Position numbers and translations under genes: made by a program. This document shows, in pieces, positions 49,543-60,495 of a stretch of DNA of 64,000 nucleotides (position 1 is its first letter; each line of letters opens with the position of its first letter). The notes under the pieces were generated by a model. The model made no database searches and had not been told where the DNA came from. It saw only the letters and a list, made by a program, of their open reading frames with translations. The stretch comes from Vibrio quintilis (GTDB taxonomy: Bacteria > Pseudomonadota > Gammaproteobacteria > Enterobacterales > Vibrionaceae), in NCBI RefSeq assembly GCF_024529975.1, contig NZ_AP024898.1:1116001-1180000 (forward strand). The letters run 5' to 3'.

Positions 49543-49792
49543 ATTCACTGCCGTATAGGCAGCTTAGAAAAGCAGGTTGGCAGCCTGCCGGTGGTTGAGC
49601 GTATTCACTGCCGTATAGGCAGCTTAGAAATTCATACTCAGCGATTTCATACCCTTCCCAGCATTCACTGCCGTATAGGCAGCTTAGAAAAATAAGGAGC
49701 ATCTTTGCTTGCTTCTTTCCACGTTCACTGCCGTGTAGGCAGCTTAGAAAATCGAGATCAGCTAACCCGGCGATCAGACTTTGTTCACTGCC
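49543..49792 (+). CRISPR. CRISPR array 1, type I-F, four spacers
   Basis: 28-bp repeats at 49543, 49603, 49663 and 49723 with 32-nt spacers, and a broken fifth repeat from 49783. The hairpin CTGCC/GGCAG of type I-F repeats is intact. The first three repeats begin with A and carry loop GTATA; the fourth begins with G and carries GTGTA like array 2. The leader is on the left, so the newest spacers carry the GTATA form. The array ends 29 bases from parE. Confidence 0.97.
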
Positions 49793-49821: not shown

Positions 49822-50121
49822 TCAACTCAGCGGATGCTGAGTGACATCCATCCGCTCATGCAAGACCCGGACAATATCAATATGGGTCGCTGTTATCTGG
49901 TAAAGCACAATATGATGCCTGAAATGATAGGCACGCAGGCCGGAAAAAATATAACCGGCTGCCCGGCCAAGTTCGGGCATACCCGCCAACACAGACAATT
50001 TTTCAGCCAACTCTCTCAGGTAACGATCTGCCTGACGACGCCCCCACTTATCACAAGTATATTGCCAGATGTCGAGCATATCCTGACGGGCCAATGGCCG
50101 GATAAAAGGAGTGACACTCAT
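49822..50121 (-). CDS. parE: ParE/RelE-family toxin
   Basis: 99 residues. RelE/ParE fold: FIRPLARQDMLDIWQYTCDK, RYLRELAEKLSVLAGMPELG, then YIFSGLRAYHFRHHIVLYQI and IDIVRVLHERMD. ParE-type toxins inhibit gyrase; others of the fold cut mRNA. It overlaps the antitoxin gene by four bases. The pair lies between CRISPR arrays 1 and 2, on the opposite strand. Confidence 0.92.
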   Translation of the reverse strand: MSVTPFIRPLARQDMLDIWQYTCDKWGRRQADRYLRELAEKLSVLAGMPELGRAAGYIFSGLRAYHFRHHIVLYQITATHIDIVRVLHERMDVTQHPLS

Positions 50122-50363
50122 ACGTCGGCGCGTTTTCTGGCTTCACAAAGCAGATCTTCTACGTCAAACGGCGCTGGTTCACCGCTTTCAAGTCCGGCAT
50201 TGGCTGCGCTGCGAAGCGCAATTAATTTCGCCTGATAGACTTCATCCTGCTGCATTTTTAACCGTAATGCTTCACGAATCACTTCACTGGCGTTGTTATA
50301 CATACCGGTATCCAGTTGCTGCCGGATATAGTCTTCAAAGACAGAACTTAAGTTTACATTCAT
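50118..50363 (-). CDS. parD: ParD-family antitoxin
   Basis: 81 residues. The N-terminal ribbon-helix-helix (MNVNLSSVFEDYIRQQLDTG, YNNASEVIREALRL) is CopG/ParD type, followed by a toxin-binding tail (FDVEDLLCEARKRADV). It neutralises ParE and should bind the inverted repeat 32 bases upstream. First gene of the pair. Confidence 0.93.
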   Translation of the reverse strand: MNVNLSSVFEDYIRQQLDTGMYNNASEVIREALRLKMQQDEVYQAKLIALRSAANAGLESGEPAPFDVEDLLCEARKRADV

Positions 50364-51750: not shown

Positions 51751-51841
51751 CGCCAACTTAACAAAACATAACAATCATCCTTGATTGAATAGCGCTGGGT
51801 TGCTTAACATAAGCGCCCGGTTTTACAACAAGGACAGCACC

Positions 51842-52810
51842 GTGGTACAGGAATTCTCCCCCAGCGAACTCAAAACCATTCTCCATTCCAAACGTGCAAA
51901 TCTGTACTACCTGCAACACTGCCGGGTTCTATTTAACGCCGGGCGGGTGGAATATCTCACCGATCAGGGCAAAGAAAGCCTGTACTGGAATATTCCGATT
52001 GCCAATACTACCGTGATTATGCTCGGCACCGGAACATCCATCACACAACCAGCCATGCGGGAACTGGCCAAAGCCGGCGTATTGGTCGGGTTTTGTGGCG
52101 GCGGAGGAACGCCTTTATATGCTGCCAATGAAGTTCAGGTCGATGTTTCGTGGCTGACGCCACAATCCGAGTATCGCCCGACAGAATACCTGCAACAATG
52201 GTGCAGCTTTTGGTTTGATGATAAAAAACGCCTTGAAGCAGCAAAAATGCTCCAGCGGGAACGGCTGAAACAGATCCGTACCCACTGGCCGTCTCTGCAA
52301 GATCCTGAAACCTTTGCGATTAATACTGACCGGCTGGAAACCGCCCTGAAGCGGTTTGAAGACAATCTGGACAACTGTCATACCACGCAAGATCTGCTCT
52401 CTCTGGAAGCCACGACAACAAAAGCACTCTATAAACTGGCCTGTGATGGCGTGCAATATGGTGAATTTACCCGCTCAGAACGAGGCAACAGCACCGACAT
52501 TGCTAACCGCTTTCTCGACCACGGCAACTACCTCGCCTATGGCTTAGCTGCCACGGCCTGCTGGGTGATCGGCCAGCCTCACGGGCTGGCAGTACTGCAT
52601 GGAAAAACCCGTCGCGGCGGACTGGTGTTTGACGTGGCAGATATCATCAAAGATGCACTGGTACTGCCACAGGCATTTATCGCGGCGATGGCCGGGGATG
52701 ATGAACAGGAATTTCGCCAACGCTGTCTGAATCAGTTCCGCAAAGGGGAAGCACTGGATGTCATGATTGACACATTACAATCGGCAGCCACACAACTGGC
52801 GGCGTACTGA
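51842..52810 (+). CDS. cas1: Cas1, type I-F integrase
   Basis: 322 residues from a GTG at 51842, chosen because AAGGA lies eight bases upstream and the length fits Cas1f; a TTG 19 codons earlier is also open. Family blocks are FSPSELKTILHSKRANLYYL, YWNIPIANTTVIMLGTGTS, GVLVGFCGGGGTPLYAANEV, LTPQSEYRPTEYLQQWCSFW, YGEFTRSERG and the metal-binding LHGKTRRGGLVFDVADIIKD. With Cas2-3 it inserts new spacers. Two bases separate it from cas2-3. Confidence 0.95.
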   Translation: MVQEFSPSELKTILHSKRANLYYLQHCRVLFNAGRVEYLTDQGKESLYWNIPIANTTVIMLGTGTSITQPAMRELAKAGVLVGFCGGGGTPLYAANEVQVDVSWLTPQSEYRPTEYLQQWCSFWFDDKKRLEAAKMLQRERLKQIRTHWPSLQDPETFAINTDRLETALKRFEDNLDNCHTTQDLLSLEATTTKALYKLACDGVQYGEFTRSERGNSTDIANRFLDHGNYLAYGLAATACWVIGQPHGLAVLHGKTRRGGLVFDVADIIKDALVLPQAFIAAMAGDDEQEFRQRCLNQFRKGEALDVMIDTLQSAATQLAAY

Positions 52811-52812
52811 AA

Positions 52813-55800
52813 ATGAATGTGTTAATCATCTCTGAGTGCAGTAAACAGGCACTGACCCAAACCCGGCAAATACTCGATCAGTTTGCAGAGCGGAAAGGCC
52901 GTCGCACCTGGCAAACTCCGATAACCGCCGAAGGGCTGAAAACCCTGAGAATGCTGCTGCGCAAGCATGCCCGGCGCAACACTGCCGTTGCCTGTTACTG
53001 GATCAGGGGGAAAAATCACACAGAGCTGATGTGGACTGTGGGTAACCGGCGAAAGTTTAATGCAGACGGCACCGTACCAACCAATATCACCCAACGGGAT
53101 ATTCTGCGCAGCGGCGATGAAAACCCAATGAACAGCATTCAGGCCGCCGCCCTGATGGCAGGAATTGCCGGGCTGTTTCATGATTTTGGTAAGGCAAATC
53201 CGCTGTTTCAGGCCAAATTAGAACGCGGCAGCGGATCAGAACCTTACCGCCATGAGTGGCTCTCCTGCCAGTTGTTCATTCTGTTTGTCGGCCAGAAAAG
53301 CGATCAACAGTGGCTGGAACACCTGACCCAAATCACCGGCTCAGAAAATATCAGCTTCCCTGCAAGTTTTGATGCCGAAAACCTGACAGGTTTTCATTCC
53401 CTGCCAACCGTTGCAAAAGCGGTCGCCTGGCTGATTCTGACGCATCACCGGTTACTTTACGATCACAGCGAACAACAACATGCCTTTGATCAGGTGGACA
53501 GTTGGCTTGAAAACACACCAGACGTCAAATGGAATGCACTCAATCATCGAAAATTTACCGACGCGGAGAAGAAACTGTGCCTGACTTTCCCTGCCGGCAC
53601 CCCCATTCAAAGCCGGACCTGGCGGCGCAAAGCGGCGGCGCTGGCAAAACGGGCACTCAATACGCCAAAACTCTCACACTATGCCACGATTGATCAGCCC
53701 TTTCCCCTGCATATTGCCCGGCTGACACTCATGCTGTCCGACCACTGCTATTCGGCCGGACCGGTAACATTGCACTGGCAGGACAGCCACTATCCCGTCA
53801 TAGCCAATACAGACCGTAAAACCGGGCAAGCCAAACAACAGCTGGATGAACATTGTGTCGGCGTCGCCCATCATGCTTACCTGCTGACGCGCATTCTGCC
53901 CCGGTTACGTTCGACGCTGCCTTCCCTGCCACCGATGAAAAAGATGAGACAACCCGGTACTTTGCCTCAGTTTCGCTGGCAGTATCACGCTTACCGGGAA
54001 GCCGAAGGTCTGGCAGAGTTATCACGGCAGGCAGGTTTTTTTGGCGTCAATATGGCCTCCACCGGCAAGGGAAAAACCTTCGCCAATGCCAGAATTATGG
54101 CCGCGTTATCAGACCCGCAACAAGGCTGTCGTTTCAGTGTCGCACTGGGGCTGCGCACGCTGACGCTGCAAACGGGTGACGCATTACGTCAGAAACTGAA
54201 TCTGGAACAAGAAACCATTGCGGTACAAATTGGTTCTCAGGCCGTGCGCGATCTCTATGATCACCAAAAGCAACCGGAGATGCAGGTTGGAAATCACGGT
54301 AGTGAGTCATCCGGCGCCTTTGATGAACTCCCTGAAGTGATTTACGACGGAGAAATCGACAACCTTTATCTCAGTGAATGGCTGAAAGCCAGAGGCAACG
54401 CGCACAAACTGGTGAGTGCACCGGTTCTGGTCAGCACGGTTGATCACCTGATCACCGCTTCAGAAGGCATTCGCGGCGGGCAGCAAATCGCACCATTACT
54501 GCGCCTGCTGACCAGTGACTTGGTTTTGGATGAACCGGATGATTTCTCGCTGGAAGATGACCCGGCGCTGGGGCGTCTGATCTGGTTTGCCGGGCTGATG
54601 GGCTCACGCGTATTACTTTCATCTGCCACGCTAACCCCGGCACTGGTGACCCATCTGTTTGCCTGCTATCAACAAGGGCGGCAGGCATTCAACCGGGTCA
54701 CCGGGGAGCAGAGCACACCCGCGATTCCCTGCGCATGGTTTGATGAATTCAGCACTCGTTCAGCGCAATGCGGTGATGAACAAGCATTCAAAACAGCGCA
54801 TCAAAGTTATGTTGATCACCGGATTGAGCAGCTTAAGCAACACGCACTACCGCTCCACTTACCCCGGTGGCTGACACTCAAATCAGTCAGTGACAAAGAA
54901 ATCTCTCCCGCAGCACACATGGCACATACCATTTATCAGGGCATCTGTGAGCTTTCTGCGGCGCACAAAACACGCCATCCAACACAAACGCAGACGGTTT
55001 CCTGCGGCATGGTCAGAATGGCAAATATCGAGCCGCTGGTTGCCATTGCCCGGCAGCTTTCTGAATTGCCTGCACCCGATAACTGCCGGATTCAGTACTG
55101 TGTTTATCACAGCCAGCTGCCACTGGCACTGCGGGCTTATCTGGAACACCGCCTTGATCGCCTGCTTCAGCGCAATGCTGATGCGCCGCAAGCCCTGTTT
55201 GAGAATGAAGAGGTGAAACAGGCATTGCTTGAGCATCAGGAGCAACATCATATTTTTGTTGTTCTCGCCTCTCCGGTGATAGAAGTCGGACGGGATCTGG
55301 ATTTCGACTGGGCGATTCTTGAGCCCAGCTCACTTCGATCATGGATTCAGGCCGCAGGCCGGGTTCAACGCCATCGCCGGATGGTGCCGCAACAGGCCAA
55401 TATTTATCTGCTCAACCGTAATTATCGTGCATTCACCCGGCAAAATCTGGCGTATACCAAACCGGGATACGAAACAGACCGATCATTTCAGATCACCGGC
55501 AATGGCAATGCCGTGAACTGTCTCAGACTAGCTGAACATGATCTGGCCGCTCAGGTGGATCTGACCACACTTACGCCACTAACCGCGGTTCCCCGCTTAA
55601 TGGCACCGCCACTGAAAGCACTCCTTGATGTGCCCGATTATCATCTGCCGTGGCGGCCAAAAAGCTGGCTGACCCTCGAACATGCCGCCACCATGCTCTC
55701 ACTCAACAGTGATTTACGGCCCTGGTGGCAACATCAGCATGCGCATCTGTTTGGCCAGTTTCAGCGGCAAACCCGCTTCCGGAAAAGCCGGCCAACCGTC

Positions 55801-56130
55801 GATTATCTGATGATTCCTGATGAAGAGAGCGGCGCTCTAAGGCTACAGGAGTTTGACTCACAGGATCAGCAATGGAAAGAGACCGTTCAGCTGAAACCCT
55901 GGCAACAAACAGGAACGACACCGGACAATTCTGCCCGTGGCATCAGCTTTTGGGGAACCGCACCACTGACGGACATCATCGATTCGCTTGCCGATCAGTT
56001 TGAGCTGAGCACGTTGGAGGCGTATCAACGCTTTTCCCGCATCACACTTGATAAGCCCGGTAACAAAACAGCAGGCAAGCCATGGTTTATCGACCCGGTG
56101 TTTGGGGTATTTCGTGGCAGGGAAATGTAA
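52813..56130 (+). CDS. cas3: Cas2-Cas3 fusion, type I-F
   Basis: 1105 residues. The N-terminal Cas2 domain covers about 1-95 (MNVLIISECSKQALTQTRQI). The HD nuclease motif is LFHDFGK (His123-Asp124). The helicase part has STGKGKT near 416, LVLDEPDD near 573, SSAT, SPVIEVGRDLDFDWA and QAAGRVQRHRR near 845. Length and order match type I-F. It degrades target DNA and supports spacer acquisition with Cas1. A terminator follows directly. Confidence 0.97.
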   Translation: MNVLIISECSKQALTQTRQILDQFAERKGRRTWQTPITAEGLKTLRMLLRKHARRNTAVACYWIRGKNHTELMWTVGNRRKFNADGTVPTNITQRDILRSGDENPMNSIQAAALMAGIAGLFHDFGKANPLFQAKLERGSGSEPYRHEWLSCQLFILFVGQKSDQQWLEHLTQITGSENISFPASFDAENLTGFHSLPTVAKAVAWLILTHHRLLYDHSEQQHAFDQVDSWLENTPDVKWNALNHRKFTDAEKKLCLTFPAGTPIQSRTWRRKAAALAKRALNTPKLSHYATIDQPFPLHIARLTLMLSDHCYSAGPVTLHWQDSHYPVIANTDRKTGQAKQQLDEHCVGVAHHAYLLTRILPRLRSTLPSLPPMKKMRQPGTLPQFRWQYHAYREAEGLAELSRQAGFFGVNMASTGKGKTFANARIMAALSDPQQGCRFSVALGLRTLTLQTGDALRQKLNLEQETIAVQIGSQAVRDLYDHQKQPEMQVGNHGSESSGAFDELPEVIYDGEIDNLYLSEWLKARGNAHKLVSAPVLVSTVDHLITASEGIRGGQQIAPLLRLLTSDLVLDEPDDFSLEDDPALGRLIWFAGLMGSRVLLSSATLTPALVTHLFACYQQGRQAFNRVTGEQSTPAIPCAWFDEFSTRSAQCGDEQAFKTAHQSYVDHRIEQLKQHALPLHLPRWLTLKSVSDKEISPAAHMAHTIYQGICELSAAHKTRHPTQTQTVSCGMVRMANIEPLVAIARQLSELPAPDNCRIQYCVYHSQLPLALRAYLEHRLDRLLQRNADAPQALFENEEVKQALLEHQEQHHIFVVLASPVIEVGRDLDFDWAILEPSSLRSWIQAAGRVQRHRRMVPQQANIYLLNRNYRAFTRQNLAYTKPGYETDRSFQITGNGNAVNCLRLAEHDLAAQVDLTTLTPLTAVPRLMAPPLKALLDVPDYHLPWRPKSWLTLEHAATMLSLNSDLRPWWQHQHAHLFGQFQRQTRFRKSRPTVDYLMIPDEESGALRLQEFDSQDQQWKETVQLKPWQQTGTTPDNSARGISFWGTAPLTDIIDSLADQFELSTLEAYQRFSRITLDKPGNKTAGKPWFIDPVFGVFRGREM

Positions 56131-56153
56131 AAACCCGCCGAAGCGGGTTTTTG
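56131..56153. terminator. terminator between cas2-3 and the ψ-repeat RNA gene
   Basis: AAAAACCCGC / GCGGGTTTTT around CGAA. It ends cas2-3 on the plus strand and would also end a minus-strand transcript coming through 56221-56154. Confidence 0.9.
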
Positions 56154-56221
56154 GAGCTGCCTGTTCGGCAGTTAATTCATTACTATATCGTAATATTTTC
56201 TAAGCTGCCTATACGGCAGTT
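56131..56221 (-). ncRNA. CreR/CreA-like regulatory crRNA gene with two degenerate repeats
   Basis: Minus strand. The first degenerate repeat (56224-56197) keeps the last 24 bases of the array 1 repeat exactly, including loop GTATA. A 20-nt spacer (56196-56177) and a second, more degenerate repeat (56176-56149; loop GAACA, intact CTGCC/GGCAG) follow, then a terminator. A promoter TTGACA-16-TAAGAT lies at 56255-56228, which places the start near 56221, at the first repeat. The spacer begins ATATTACGATA; the same 11 bases, preceded by CC, occur on this strand at 56289-56277. It is 12 nt shorter than normal spacers. Confidence 0.8.
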
Positions 56222-56227
56222 GCCAGA

Positions 56228-56255
56228 ATCTTACCTTTCATTTTGATCTTGTCAA
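56228..56255 (-). promoter_or_regulatory. promoter of the ψ-repeat RNA
   Basis: Perfect -35 TTGACA (56255-56250), 16 bases, then -10 TAAGAT (56233-56228). It points at the degenerate repeats and diverges from the cas8f promoter. Confidence 0.65.
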
Positions 56256-56276
56256 TGAAGCAGATTTTTAAATTCT

Positions 56277-56317
56277 TATCGTAATATGGTTGAATTTATG
56301 AAGCACAGCGATATAAT
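56277..56317 (+). promoter_or_regulatory. cas8f-operon promoter with abutting crRNA-like target site
   Basis: -35 TTGAAT (56290-56295), 16 bases, -10 TATAAT (56312-56317). Just upstream, 56277-56287 is the complement of the first 11 bases of the ψ-repeat spacer, and GG at 56288-56289 is the CC PAM on the other strand, touching the -35 box. Binding of a type I-F complex here should block the promoter. Confidence 0.7.
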
Positions 56318-56352
56318 CATAATCAACAAGAAACATATGAAAGGATGTTTCT

Positions 56353-56514
56353 ATGGAAACGTTTTTAATAAAATGTCTTGAAAAAATGTGGATATTGATA
56401 AAAGCAAAAGGAAATCAATTCAATAATACACACAAAAGATTCTATTTAAATTTCCATAAAATAAAAATATTACTGATTTTTATTCATCTGATTCGTAAAT
56501 ACTTTGACAACTAA
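56353..56514 (+). CDS. 53-aa small basic hydrophobic protein, first gene of the cas8f operon
   Basis: Starts ATG at 56353 with AAAGGA seven bases upstream and ends at 56514, nine bases before cas8f-cas5f, whose ribosome site overlaps the stop. Begins METFLIKCLEKMWILIKAKG; a hydrophobic stretch ILLIFIHLI lies near the end. About ten basic and three acidic residues. Five of eight Ile codons are ATA, rare in the neighbouring genes. No homology recognised. It is either a leader peptide coupled to the cas gene, a CreT-like toxin under ψ-repeat control, or chance. Confidence 0.5.
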   Translation: METFLIKCLEKMWILIKAKGNQFNNTHKRFYLNFHKIKILLIFIHLIRKYFDN

Positions 56515-56523
56515 AGGAATATA

Positions 56524-58881
56524 ATGATTTCTGATCAAATCCGCGCCTATATTCAGTCCCGTTTTGAGGCCAAGCGGGACACGGAAGACAAGGCATTTGA
56601 TAAAAAGCGGTCGGCTGCCACCTCGCCCTCCGACCTCGATGCCGTTGAAGCGGCCTACACTGAAAAAATTGCCCGGCTTATCCATGATTACACGCCTGCC
56701 GTCTGGCTGGACAGCGCCGCCAAACGCGCCAAACAGATCAGCATGGCCACCCATGTGATCAAGCTGGTCAACAGCAGTGCCAAAGGCACCAGCCTGATTG
56801 CCGGTGAAAGCCGCCATGACCCGCATTATCTGGATACCAGCGCATTAGAAAACCCGGTGAAAGATGTGTCGGGCAATGCGGCAAGCCTTGATGTGGCCGG
56901 GCTGCTGCAACTGACAGAAGATTCAGGCAAGTCTCTGCTGAACTACCTGCAAGCCAATGACTTTTCTCCCCTCGCGCCATTTACCGTTGATGAAACGCAG
57001 TTGCAAAGCTGGGGGCAAGGTCTGAAACAGGCATTAGAGGATCAGGCGCCCGCCAGCCATACACTGGGCAAACAGGTTTATTTTCCTGTCGCTGACGGAA
57101 CCTATCACCTGCTGGCCGTTCTGCCCTCCTCCGCCCTGATACAAACAATTGATGAAACCATTCAGCATTGCCGCTTCAGTCAGGCGATGAAAGAAGCCAG
57201 AGATGCTAAAAAAGCCAACCATCTTTATCCGGATCCGGTAGTTACGTACCCCAATCTGGCTTTAATGACTGCCGGAGGTTCCAAACCTCAGAATATTTCC
57301 CAGCTCAACTCACAACGTCGCGGAAGATGCTACCTGCTACCAGCCACACCGCCCAAATTACGGGAAAAACTGCTGCCGCCACTGCATGTGGAGAGCCTGT
57401 TTCATCATGGTGCGGTCTTAACTGCAACCCGTCCAATCATTAAGGAAATGGTGACTCATCTGAAAGAGATGCACCAAAACAACGTTGACAGCACGCTGCC
57501 GCACCGGGACAAAATACGCGATTATATCGACCAAACCATTGATGCCATCTCCGGTATCGTCGGCCAGTGGCAGCGCCTGCCAGCGGGTTGGAGTGATGAA
57601 GCTGAAACCCTCTGGCCGGAACACAAACGCTGGGCAGATCCAAACCATCCGGAATGGGATATTCATGATAAAAGCTGGCACAAAGCGCTGCCAAAACAAT
57701 TTGCTCAATGGCTGAATGATGTTTTGAATGGCTATAGCGCCAAATCATTTCTCTTTGCCGGGGGCGATCAAAGCTACTGGAAAAAGTTTTTCAAACAGTG
57801 GCGGGATCAGTTCCGGTTCGATAGTTTCACTGGTCTGAGCATAGCTTCAGACGCTGAGCCGGACGAAGCAGAACAGCAACAGAGTCAGACAGCACCCAAA
57901 CAAACCAGCAACTCTTACGCCAACAGTTCGAACGCTAACAGCACGCAGGGAAATACGGGTGAAACCTATCTGGTGCTGAAGCGTATTCAGGTCACGCAGG
58001 CCAATGCCGTCGGCGGGCTGACTTACGGCTTCCCGGCCATCACCCATTTTCTCGGTTATGTCCATGCCTTGTCCCGCAAACTGTCTGCCGCACACGGCAT
58101 CACCCTGTCAGCCACCAGTGTGGTCTGCCATCATCATCAGATTCATGCCTACAGAGCTGCCGGTTACGAGCCTTATATTTTTGCCCAAACCCGCAACCCG
58201 TTAACCCATGAGGGAAAAACCGCTCCTATCAATGAAGAAGGCAAAATGAACATGACGGTTTCTCTGGTGATCCGGGCACAGGGGCTGAACCTGATCAATG
58301 ATGAGCAACACCGTGATCAGTGTAAAGCTATCCAACAACTGGCAGAAAGACACCGTTTAGCCGGTGGCAAAATTACGTCCATCGACGGCTGTTACATCAC
58401 CACACACCATGAGCCGGTAAAAGTCTTCCGGCCGTTAATGCCGGGCACGATTCTGGTGGACCGGGCCCCATTACTGGCAACAGAAGCCCCCGATCCGACG
58501 CAAACTCTCAAGCGATGGCTGAAAGTCTCCTCTCTGACCTATGTTTCAAAACAGGTGCCGGTGAAAGAAAACAGTGAAGAGACCCAAATTGACTGGCAAC
58601 AAATTGATAAAAACAAAGGTTGGCTGGTGCCCTTCATGGTCGGCTATAAACAGATCAGCCCTCTTTATCCGGCCGGTGAAGTGGCGAACATGCGCGACCT
58701 CAATACGCCGGTCAGCTTTGTTGAACCGATTCACAGTATCGCTGAATGGATCAGAAGACCCAGCCGGATAGAAACACTCGGCAGTGTCATGTGGTGCTAC
58801 CACGATGACGCACCTTTTTATGCCTGCCGCAGCGAGCAAGCGCAAACCCTCTCCTCCGACGACCTGATTGATATTATTTAA
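56524..58881 (+). CDS. cas8f-cas5f: fused Cas8f-Cas5f (Csy1-Csy2), type I-F effector subunits
   Basis: 785 residues, about the sum of Csy1 and Csy2. Residues 1-440 are Csy1/Cas8f-like ([40 protein letters not shown], then [20 protein letters not shown]). A Gln/Ser/Asn-rich linker of about 40 residues follows (441-479). Residues 480-785 are Csy2/Cas5f-like from [20 protein letters not shown], with [18 protein letters not shown] and the terminal [11 protein letters not shown]. The large and small foot of the crRNA complex, which recognises the PAM and holds the 5' handle, is thus one polypeptide. The frame through the linker is clean. Confidence 0.92.
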
Positions 58882-58894
58882 CAAGGATTTTTCC

Positions 58895-59896
58895 ATGAGC
58901 AAATTACAAACGCCTTCTGTCCTCGCATTTGAATCTAAATTAGCCTGCTCCGATGCCAAATTTGAAGCCGGTTTATGGTCAGATAAAAACACCAATACCG
59001 AATGGAAGCCGGTTGCTGTGACCGAAAAATCAGTTCGCGGCACCATTTCAAACCGTTTGAAAGGTGCCAAAGCCAGTAAGCTGGATGCAGAAATCGAAAA
59101 TGCCAACCTGCAAACGGTCGATACCGCCGCGCTGCCCTTCGATACCGACACCCTGAAAGTGACTTTTACCCTGCGGGTATTGGGTGATTTATCCACGCCA
59201 TCCACCTGTAACGGTCCTGAATACCAATCCACACTGGCTGGTAAAATCCACCAATATGTCACTGAGTACGGTTTTCAGACACTGAGTCTCCGCTATGCAG
59301 CGAACCTTGCCAATGGCCGTTTTTTGTGGCGCAACCGGGTGGGTGCCGAGGCGATTGAAGTTCGTATCCATCATCAGGAGCAAACATGGACGTTTAACGC
59401 CTATGATTTCAATCTGAAATCGTTCGATCAGCCCACAGAAGCGGTTCAAACCATTGCCGGAGTTATTGAGCAGGGATTACTGGGAGAACAGGCAACGCTG
59501 CTGACCATCGAAGCGTTTGTTCAGTTTGGTGCCGGGCAGACGGTCTATCCGTCTCAGGAGCTGGTTTTAAATGCCGGGAGTACCAATAAGAAAAGTAAAG
59601 AGCTCTATTCACTGAGTGAAAGCATTGATCGTCAGGCCGCCATGCATTCACAGAAAATCGGCAATGCCCTGCGCACTATCGACACCTGGTATCCACAAGC
59701 GGATGAATCCGGATCAATTGCCATCGAACCTTATGGCAGTGTCACCAACCGGGGGATTGCTTACCGCAAACCCAAAGAGAAAACGGATTTCTACACCCTG
59801 CTGGATCAGTGGATGCTGAAAGATAAAACGCCCACAGAAGCAGAGCAGCACTACATCATGGCCATGCTGATTCGTGGTGGCGTATTCGGAGCGTAA
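58895..59896 (+). CDS. cas7f: Cas7f (Csy3) backbone subunit
   Basis: 333 residues from [27 protein letters not shown] lies ahead and nine open codons upstream are not used. Csy3 pattern: [68 protein letters not shown] block and [11 protein letters not shown]. Several copies line the crRNA spacer, each covering six nucleotides. Thirteen bases after the fusion gene, two before cas6f. Confidence 0.95.
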
Positions 59897-59898
59897 AG

Positions 59899-60495
59899 AT
59901 GGACTATTATCTTGATATACGGGTCGAGCCGGATCTGGAAGTGACCGCACCGGCACTGCTCAATAATCTGTTTGCCAAGTTCCACCGGTTTATGGCGCAG
60001 TCGGTTGCCGGTGAAGTTGCGGTCAGTTTTCCGGAATATGGTCGCCGTGAGCAAAGCCGGAGCAAACCCGGAAAACCGACAGCACCGACCGCAGGCCGGG
60101 TATTGCGGTTGCATGGCTCGCAGACCGCGTTGGATCATTTGATGACCTTGCCGTGGCTCAAAGGGTTACGTGACTACACGCAGATCAGCGATTTACTGCC
60201 GGTGCCGAAAAATATTGAAGGCTACCGGACAGTTTACCGGGTGCAAAAGAAAAGCCCGCATAATCTGCGCAAACGAGCGGTTGCCAAAGGCAGAATGACG
60301 GAAGCCGAAGCATGGCAAAAGATCCCGGATGAGAATCAGCAAGTGCTGAAACTGCCTTATCTGCAGTTACAAAGTCTCTCCAATCATCAGGTGATGCGGA
60401 TTTTTATTGCACTGGGGGAATTACAACGCGAGCCGGTTGACGGGATATTTTCCAGTTATGGGTTGAGCCGTGAGGCAACCGTGCCGTGGTTTTAG
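59899..60495 (+). CDS. cas6f: Cas6f (Csy4) crRNA endonuclease
   Basis: 198 residues. MDYYLDIRVEPD opens the protein; the catalytic His is His29 in FAKFHRFM, as in Csy4. An Arg/Lys-rich helix (SPHNLRKRAVAKGRM) binds the repeat hairpin, and the C-terminus SSYGLSREATVPWF is typical. It cuts the repeats on the 3' side of the CTGCC/GGCAG hairpin and should also process the ψ-repeat transcript. Confidence 0.95.
   Translation: MDYYLDIRVEPDLEVTAPALLNNLFAKFHRFMAQSVAGEVAVSFPEYGRREQSRSKPGKPTAPTAGRVLRLHGSQTALDHLMTLPWLKGLRDYTQISDLLPVPKNIEGYRTVYRVQKKSPHNLRKRAVAKGRMTEAEAWQKIPDENQQVLKLPYLQLQSLSNHQVMRIFIALGELQREPVDGIFSSYGLSREATVPWF

Follow-up and report, generated by a model that had tools for sequence, protein, structure and literature searches.

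In the type I-F CRISPR-Cas locus of Vibrio quintilis, the gap between cas2-3 and csy1 holds a small candidate RNA gene whose crRNA-like product, judging from its sequence and from its relatives, is probably a CreA/CreR-type guide that represses a promoter in the same gap (56290-56317). The element has the full anatomy of such a guide gene, its target match is unique in the genome, and the logic by which guide and target fit each other is conserved across relatives. The locus lies in a stretch of 64,000 nucleotides (assembly GCF_024529975.1, contig NZ_AP024898.1, positions 1,116,001 to 1,180,000), hereafter called the window, in which all positions are counted. Shmakov and colleagues reportedly described in 2023 standalone repeats of I-F1 systems as mini-arrays partly complementary to cas8 promoters, with one I-F1 case tested experimentally.

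The type I-F system of the window is complete (cas1f, cas2-3f, a csy1-csy2 fusion, csy3, and csy4) and has CRISPR arrays on both sides; the guide gene lies on the minus strand inside the 393-bp gap (Table 1). A first-pass annotation had proposed a minus-strand promoter, two degenerate repeats with a 20-nt spacer between them, and a terminator, and direct reading gave the same elements base for base. The last 24 nt of the first repeat-like element, which had been equated with the repeat of array 1, are identical to the first three repeats of that array (49543-49690). The locus thus shows a trait of CreA/CreR RNAs, degenerate repeats that stand outside the arrays and match the co-resident repeat. 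Against the Rfam model CRISPR-DR4, the two elements PsiR1 and PsiR2 reach 33.1 and 28.0 bits, below the gathering score of 35 (E 1.8e-5 and 6.5e-4). Rfam matches to rsmX, RsmY, istR, and STnc180 were far under their gathering scores and were taken as chance. The fold of the guide RNA has a z of -6.3, and in the lowest-energy structure the two repeat copies pair together instead of forming two separate Csy4 hairpins. The terminator is predicted to end the guide RNA and probably also the transcription of cas1-cas2-3.

Table 1. Features of the cas2-3/csy1 gap and of the flanking cas genes (window positions).
Feature	Position	Strand	Remarks
cas1f	51785..52810	+	
cas2-3f	52813..56130	+	
Hairpin terminator	56129..56152	both ways	T-run on either strand; overlaps the cas2-3 stop; the promoter/terminator scan did not list it
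PsiR2, second repeat-like element	56149..56176	-	last 8 nt degenerate
PsiS, spacer-like guide	56177..56196	-	20 nt
PsiR1, first repeat-like element	56197..56224	-	28 nt; Csy4-type hairpin + 8-nt handle CTTAGAAA
Predicted guide-gene promoter	56228..56255	-	TTGACA 56255-56250, 16 nt, TAAGAT 56233-56228; consensus match only
Target (protospacer)	56268..56287	-	guide positions 1-11 match 56287-56277; 12-17 mismatch
CC PAM	56288..56289	-	abuts the -35 box
Predicted target promoter	56290..56317	+	TTGAAT 56290-56295, 16 nt, TATAAT 56312-56317; consensus match
53-codon ORF	56353..56514	+	SD AAAGGA 56340-56345; candidate cargo, possibly toxic
csy1-csy2 (cas8f-cas5f)	56524..58881	+	single fused frame, 785 aa
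csy3 (cas7f)	58868..59896	+	
csy4 (cas6f)	59899..60495	+	expected guide-RNA processor

Several features of the surroundings may be mentioned here. Each of the three CRISPR arrays (49410, 50628, and 60555) follows a copy of one 161-nt leader-like repeat, and the guide gene shares with array 1 the variant found in its first three repeats. A ParE toxin gene (Pfam PF05016, E 2e-19) lies within 49822-50363, between arrays 1 and 2, downstream of an 81-aa ORF that, by resemblance, is presumably its antitoxin. The fusion of csy1 and csy2 occurs here in a locus that nevertheless has cas1 and cas2-3. Among the 120 listed of 170 homologues there was no second protein of fusion size, but frames with both halves, of 846, 814, and 768 aa, were seen in the genomes G203, G347, and G414.

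The spacer partly matches the nearby predicted promoter, through an 11-nt seed beside the type I-F PAM CC. This placement of the seed, with the PAM touching the -35 box, had been claimed in the first pass and is read directly from the DNA. CC plus the 11-mer occurs once in the 5.85-Mb genome. When 56226-56523 was shuffled 20,000 times with dinucleotides preserved, CC plus the 11-mer never appeared, and the 11-mer alone did so in 12 shuffles. The predicted target promoter is the only plus-strand promoter match in 55900-56700, in a scan whose overall yield (4 in 801 bases, versus 2.3 with an s.d. of 1.6 in shuffles) is not above chance. Because a two-way terminator follows cas2-3 and that interval has no other plus-strand promoter match, 56290-56317 is the likely source of the csy transcript; and because no second plus-strand match precedes csy1, feedback on the effector through the window guide is likely, with the reservation that a separate csy1 promoter could have escaped the scan. 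The -35 box of the divergent guide promoter begins 12 bp past the end of the 20-nt target (56250-56289). A 32-nt guide would extend up to this box, which may be the reason why the guide is short.

A single-protein csy1-csy2 query of genome contigs returned no relatives, and an alignment of Csy1 was used instead, from which the best 80 of 478 relatives were taken. A repeat-consensus scan, its output counted by eye, showed two repeat-like elements on the minus strand upstream of csy1, spaced by 42-60 nt, in 22 of the 80. A handle + seed detector compared spacer positions 1-5 and 7-11 with a nearby CC-flanked site on the same strand, with at most one miss. Such a match is kept in 21 of the 22 relatives, with 18 different guide sequences; the exception, L098, has two repeat-like elements but no local match. 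The first-pass annotation had named loss of the seed/PAM match in close relatives that keep the repeats as a refuting outcome; in these relatives, L098 excepted, the match is kept.

The repeat-consensus scan missed one locus, L060, which the handle + seed detector recovered; with L060 and the window included, this detector was positive in 23 of 81 regions, as against 7 of 1620 single-base shuffles. A further 77 regions upstream of csy1 matches, two of them shortened by contig ends, came from 57 of the 59 other order genomes with a match (all except G049 and G103) and from 20 of the 29 other class-sample genomes with a match. A wider two-strand search was positive in 35 of these 77, and because 26 of 385 single-base shuffles passed it as well, the final detector also demanded a hairpin. 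This hairpin + handle detector found the element in 51 of 158 regions upstream of csy1 and in 2 of 474 dinucleotide shuffles, counts that are not independent since the loci are related to each other. The claim of a CreR/CreA-like guide with seed-and-PAM logic is supported by this result. The remaining 107 of the 158 regions have no guide element by the same detector, so a guide is not a general requirement of the csy genes. No close relative of the window guide itself was found when the gap DNA was searched in 61 genomes (its own included). Ten had a match: array repeats (own genome and G037), terminator matches of 22-23 nt, two short unrelated matches (G059 and G016), and, in G042 (78% over 64 bases), the repeats of the guide gene of L220, which lies at the same place and has a different guide.

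How the relatives' guides pair with their targets carries signs of function. For a profile by position, 42 distinct guides were used, 9 of the 51 being dropped for a repeated guide start; position 6 and positions from 12 onwards had played no part in finding the matches. Guide and target match at position 6 in 14 of 42 and at position 12 in 12 of 42, versus 34 of 42 at position 13, 31 of 41 at 14, 30 of 38 at 15, and 30 of 35 at 16. Position 18 (17/35) does no worse than positions 19 (18/34) and 20 (14/28), so the 6-nt mismatch pattern is visible only at 6 and 12. In the guide bound by the Csy complex every sixth base is flipped out, and the mismatches at 6 and 12 can thus be seen as a mark left by selection for Csy binding. 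The lengths of 41 guides, determined from the second hairpin, fall into 13-15, 18-21, 24-27, 30-32, and 36-38 nt (L222 was left out because it has no second hairpin). No length leaves a remainder of 4 or 5 modulo 6, and the Rayleigh value is ~4e-6 for a period of 6 and 6e-5 for a period of 5. Such clusters would follow from one Cas7f covering six bases, and they agree with the earlier proposal that the window guide is shortened by 6-nt Cas7 steps.

The position of the PAM points the same way. A -35 box with a matching -10 box begins 0-4 nt after the PAM (GG on the plus strand) in 18 of 35 minus-strand loci; at twelve control places, displaced by 10-60 nt to one side or the other, the count is 0-3 of 35. 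The 35 loci were hand-picked from the matches of the handle + seed and wider searches; L060, L124, L178, L179, and L186 among them fail the hairpin filter, and L058, L084, L119, L177, and L231 (repeats of others) and L248 (which fails the filter) were excluded. Guide and target also change together between relatives at the level of families: between E. coli 503025 and E. whittamii, position 5 is changed alike in both. The window guide is of the commonest length (20 nt), the PAM of its target touches the -35 box, and it pairs throughout the seed (positions 1-11), but it differs from the family in that positions 12-17 are unpaired; L076, L083, L124, and L067 are likewise limited to the seed. Taken together, the conserved guide-target match in relatives, the mismatches at 6 and 12, the 6-nt length steps, and the PAM at the -35 box argue for a CreA/CreR-type guide.

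Some of these guides stand in other arrangements. Of the 51 positives, 16 are on the plus strand, 15 of them in one family of small genomes (L197-L227); ten plus-strand guides have their target 600-1100 nt before csy1, and many show the 6/12 mismatch pattern. In Stenoxybacter (L099) there is a three-repeat mini-array, one spacer of which matches the local promoter region; the test applied gave no local match for the other spacer, which is 32 nt long. Of the 5426 complete genomes of E. coli, 237 have a homologous gap, and the four that were read (L167-L170) are type I-F loci with a guide.

The element is probably a further case of the CreA/CreR type, which has already been published for type I-F. 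According to Wang (2023, PMC10097628), a type I-F CreTA module of Acinetobacter WCHA45 occupies the same place, with reporter and toxicity data, and the authors report 19 further modules. Guide repression was demonstrated there by reporter in the same layout as in the window: a guide gene with two degenerate repeats in a cas3-csy1 gap of ~400 bp, divergent from an SD and ORF, with a 20-nt guide, a CC PAM, and a partial match. The differences concern the target, which lies downstream of the creT promoter in Acinetobacter, whereas in the window the PAM abuts the -35 box; the pairing, which covers 17 of 20 guide nt as against 11 consecutive nt; and the cargo, since creT is a 33-bp mini-ORF that acts as RNA, whereas the window ORF is 53 codons long and stops just short of csy1. 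In WCHA45 the pairs at 13-17 were required for antitoxin function (PMC10097628); consecutive pairing in the window stops at 11, so its 11-nt seed may be weak and the repression weaker.

The window guide also resembles two other kinds of system, both reviewed in PMC12737573. CreR, listed there for types I and V-A, resembles a crRNA and brings the effector to the promoter of the very cas operon that encodes it, as the window guide may; CreR is described as generally uncoupled from a toxin gene, whereas the window operon has an ORF in first place. In CrePA, a CreA-type guide represses a protein-coding gene, which again may hold for the window; CreP is typically a KilA-N protein, in contrast to the window ORF with its lack of Pfam or PADLOC matches. 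Among the matches listed in a literature search on small proteins or toxins in the cas3-csy1 gap, judged by title and start of abstract and with most subscription papers outside its scope, only PMC10097628 and PMC12737573 were to the point. Two points may be new: that I-F loci carry a conserved small-protein cargo, and that guide length, when measured, goes in 6-nt steps.

These parallels raise a serious competing explanation, toward which we lean somewhat less than halfway, namely that the locus is first of all an addiction module. The guide would then be an antitoxin (CreA), the 53-codon ORF or its RNA would be a toxin of CreT or CreP kind that is released when the Csy complex fails, and csy feedback would be a by-product of co-transcription. 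Up to the cargo, addiction and simple repression by the guide involve the same molecular steps. The place, orientation, 20-nt guide, CC PAM, and SD + ORF layout shared with Acinetobacter CreTA all speak for addiction. The first-pass annotation had argued for feedback control of the effector, and this part stands as likely because of the single plus-strand promoter match before csy1, but the closest published case with the same layout (PMC10097628) is a toxin-antitoxin module and not a pure feedback loop.

The 53-codon ORF, overlooked in the first pass, is the first ORF read from the target promoter and ends 9 nt before csy1. What had been called the own promoter of cas8f does read towards cas8f-cas5f, but with this ORF in front it is really a promoter of the small ORF and the csy genes. 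The length of the ORF is in favour of the addiction module, as a frame of such length after the start at 56353 arose in only 29 of 5000 shuffles (any leader ORF of at least 53 codons in 41 of 5000). Against it, the ORF is without relatives in searches, and its basic (+7), weakly hydrophobic product has a 19-residue hydropathy maximum of 1.19, under the usual yardstick of 1.6 for a membrane span. No match was found in Pfam (E 0.1 and E 1), NCBIfam, or PADLOC, and a search of ~5.8 billion proteins that needed shared five-residue words returned only the ORF itself. Across 196 genomes of the genus there were 10 matches including its own; the other nine were weak (E 4e-4 to 0.005), six being one shared stretch that resembles a shadow frame and three being crossed by stops, and the pattern used found no Csy4-type hairpin near any of them. 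The ORF is neither recognisably a member of the enterobacterial small-protein family described below nor like the Photobacterium ORF of L055. We regard toxicity of its product as quite possible, with doubt slightly prevailing.

In relatives, the leader between target and csy1 varies. Of the 35 loci, 8 have the PAM 60-88 nt away from the csy1 start, 4 have it 121-141 nt away, and in 23 the spacing is at least 183 nt. The 8 loci with 60-88 nt, which include the congener L205 (genome G272) and L178 of the same family (genome G292), have no ORF of at least 25 codons between target and csy1; the guide there can hardly regulate anything except csy1, which counts against addiction as the general role. 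By contrast, an SD and an ORF of at least 25 codons were found in 17 of the 23 long leaders, a raw count that would favour addiction; L079 has a leader ORF without the SD that the filter required. The leader ORFs of Pectobacterium, Dickeya, Erwinia, Serratia, Leclercia, and Photorhabdus have a basic start and a hydrophobic stretch in common, often with a C-terminal SIFSITIN-like motif (some start codons were chosen by us, and the Pectobacterium pair lacks the SD motif that the filter required). They form a family of small, membrane-like proteins to which 17 database proteins belong, none with a named function; most have a basic start and one hydrophobic stretch. This family is a further point for an addiction module, and its dN/dS values, 0.20 between two Pectobacterium loci (13 changes: 7.0 synonymous, 6.0 other) and 0.23 between two Photorhabdus loci (18 changes: 9.5 synonymous, 8.5 other), argue for translated, conserved proteins, not RNA toxins, in these two genera. 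Six small ORF products (P0121-P0123, P0125, P0128, and P0138) had no Pfam match above the cut-off and no PADLOC match. In three of the four E. coli records (L168-L170), on the other hand, the ORF is frameshifted relative to E. whittamii while guide and target still pair, which fits regulation that outlives the ORF; two of these three have csy1 or csy2 annotated with an internal stop. The 86-aa product of the leader ORF in Alishewanella (L060:4690-4950) has a hydrophobic stretch and a KP motif, features that recur in several of the shorter enterobacterial ORFs.

Two further explanations can be treated briefly. The element might be what remains of a CRISPR array after decay, its two repeats flanking a spacer that has been shortened and matches a promoter by chance, and the degenerate repeats, the short spacer, and the mere 11 consecutive paired positions would suit such a remnant; the unique match, the promoter-like and terminator-like ends, the placement of the PAM, and the covarying matches in relatives make it very improbable. 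Least credible of all is an RNA anti-CRISPR (Racr)-like decoy that titrates Csy4 or Cas7f instead of guiding DNA binding, because, although repeats are mimicked and I-F Racrs exist, Racrs are solitary repeat units, carried by a virus or plasmid and described from viral genomes (PMC10651486), whereas the window has a pair of repeats and a spacer whose target is local, between cas2-3 and csy1 within a cas locus and not on a virus.

With repression by a CreA/CreR-type guide as the preferred explanation, we infer transcription, processing, repression, and feedback of the window guide along the following lines. The guide RNA would be transcribed leftwards from ~56221, and Csy4 would cut it at the base of each repeat hairpin, which would give an 8-nt handle, the 20-nt guide, and the repeat hairpin. 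The processed guide would load into a shortened Csy complex with two Cas7f steps fewer, and this complex would bind 56289-56268 via the CC and the 11-nt seed, so that its PAM end adjoins the -35 box of TTGAAT-16-TATAAT. RNA polymerase would be kept off the target promoter, and the match would be too short for cutting by Cas2-3. The promoter is predicted to read the 53-codon ORF and then csy1-csy2, csy3, and csy4; repression would lower both the small ORF and the effector, and its relief would raise them. In other words, when the Csy complex is lost or titrated, whether by new crRNAs, anti-CRISPRs, or cas mutation, the product of the small ORF and the effector would both go up.

The window may provide a concrete case of a CRISPR effector that acts as its own repressor, together with sequence rules that predict such guides: a CC that touches the -35 box, mismatches allowed at 6 and 12, and a length in 6-nt steps. 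As a tentative generalization, about which we are more doubtful than confident, many gammaproteobacterial I-F loci may keep an operon repressed by means of a guide, the first gene of that operon being one for a small membrane-active protein. Feedback on the effector would then be coupled, through a single promoter, to a suicide or alarm gene acting as protein and not as RNA; the window would be an example with its own orphan cargo, and the 6-nt length steps would mean that this switch naturally works with shortened Csy complexes. If the small ORFs are toxins, phages with anti-CRISPRs would trip them, and common bacteria, some E. coli among them, would have an alarm built into their I-F systems, one missing from the annotation of the four E. 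coli records examined.
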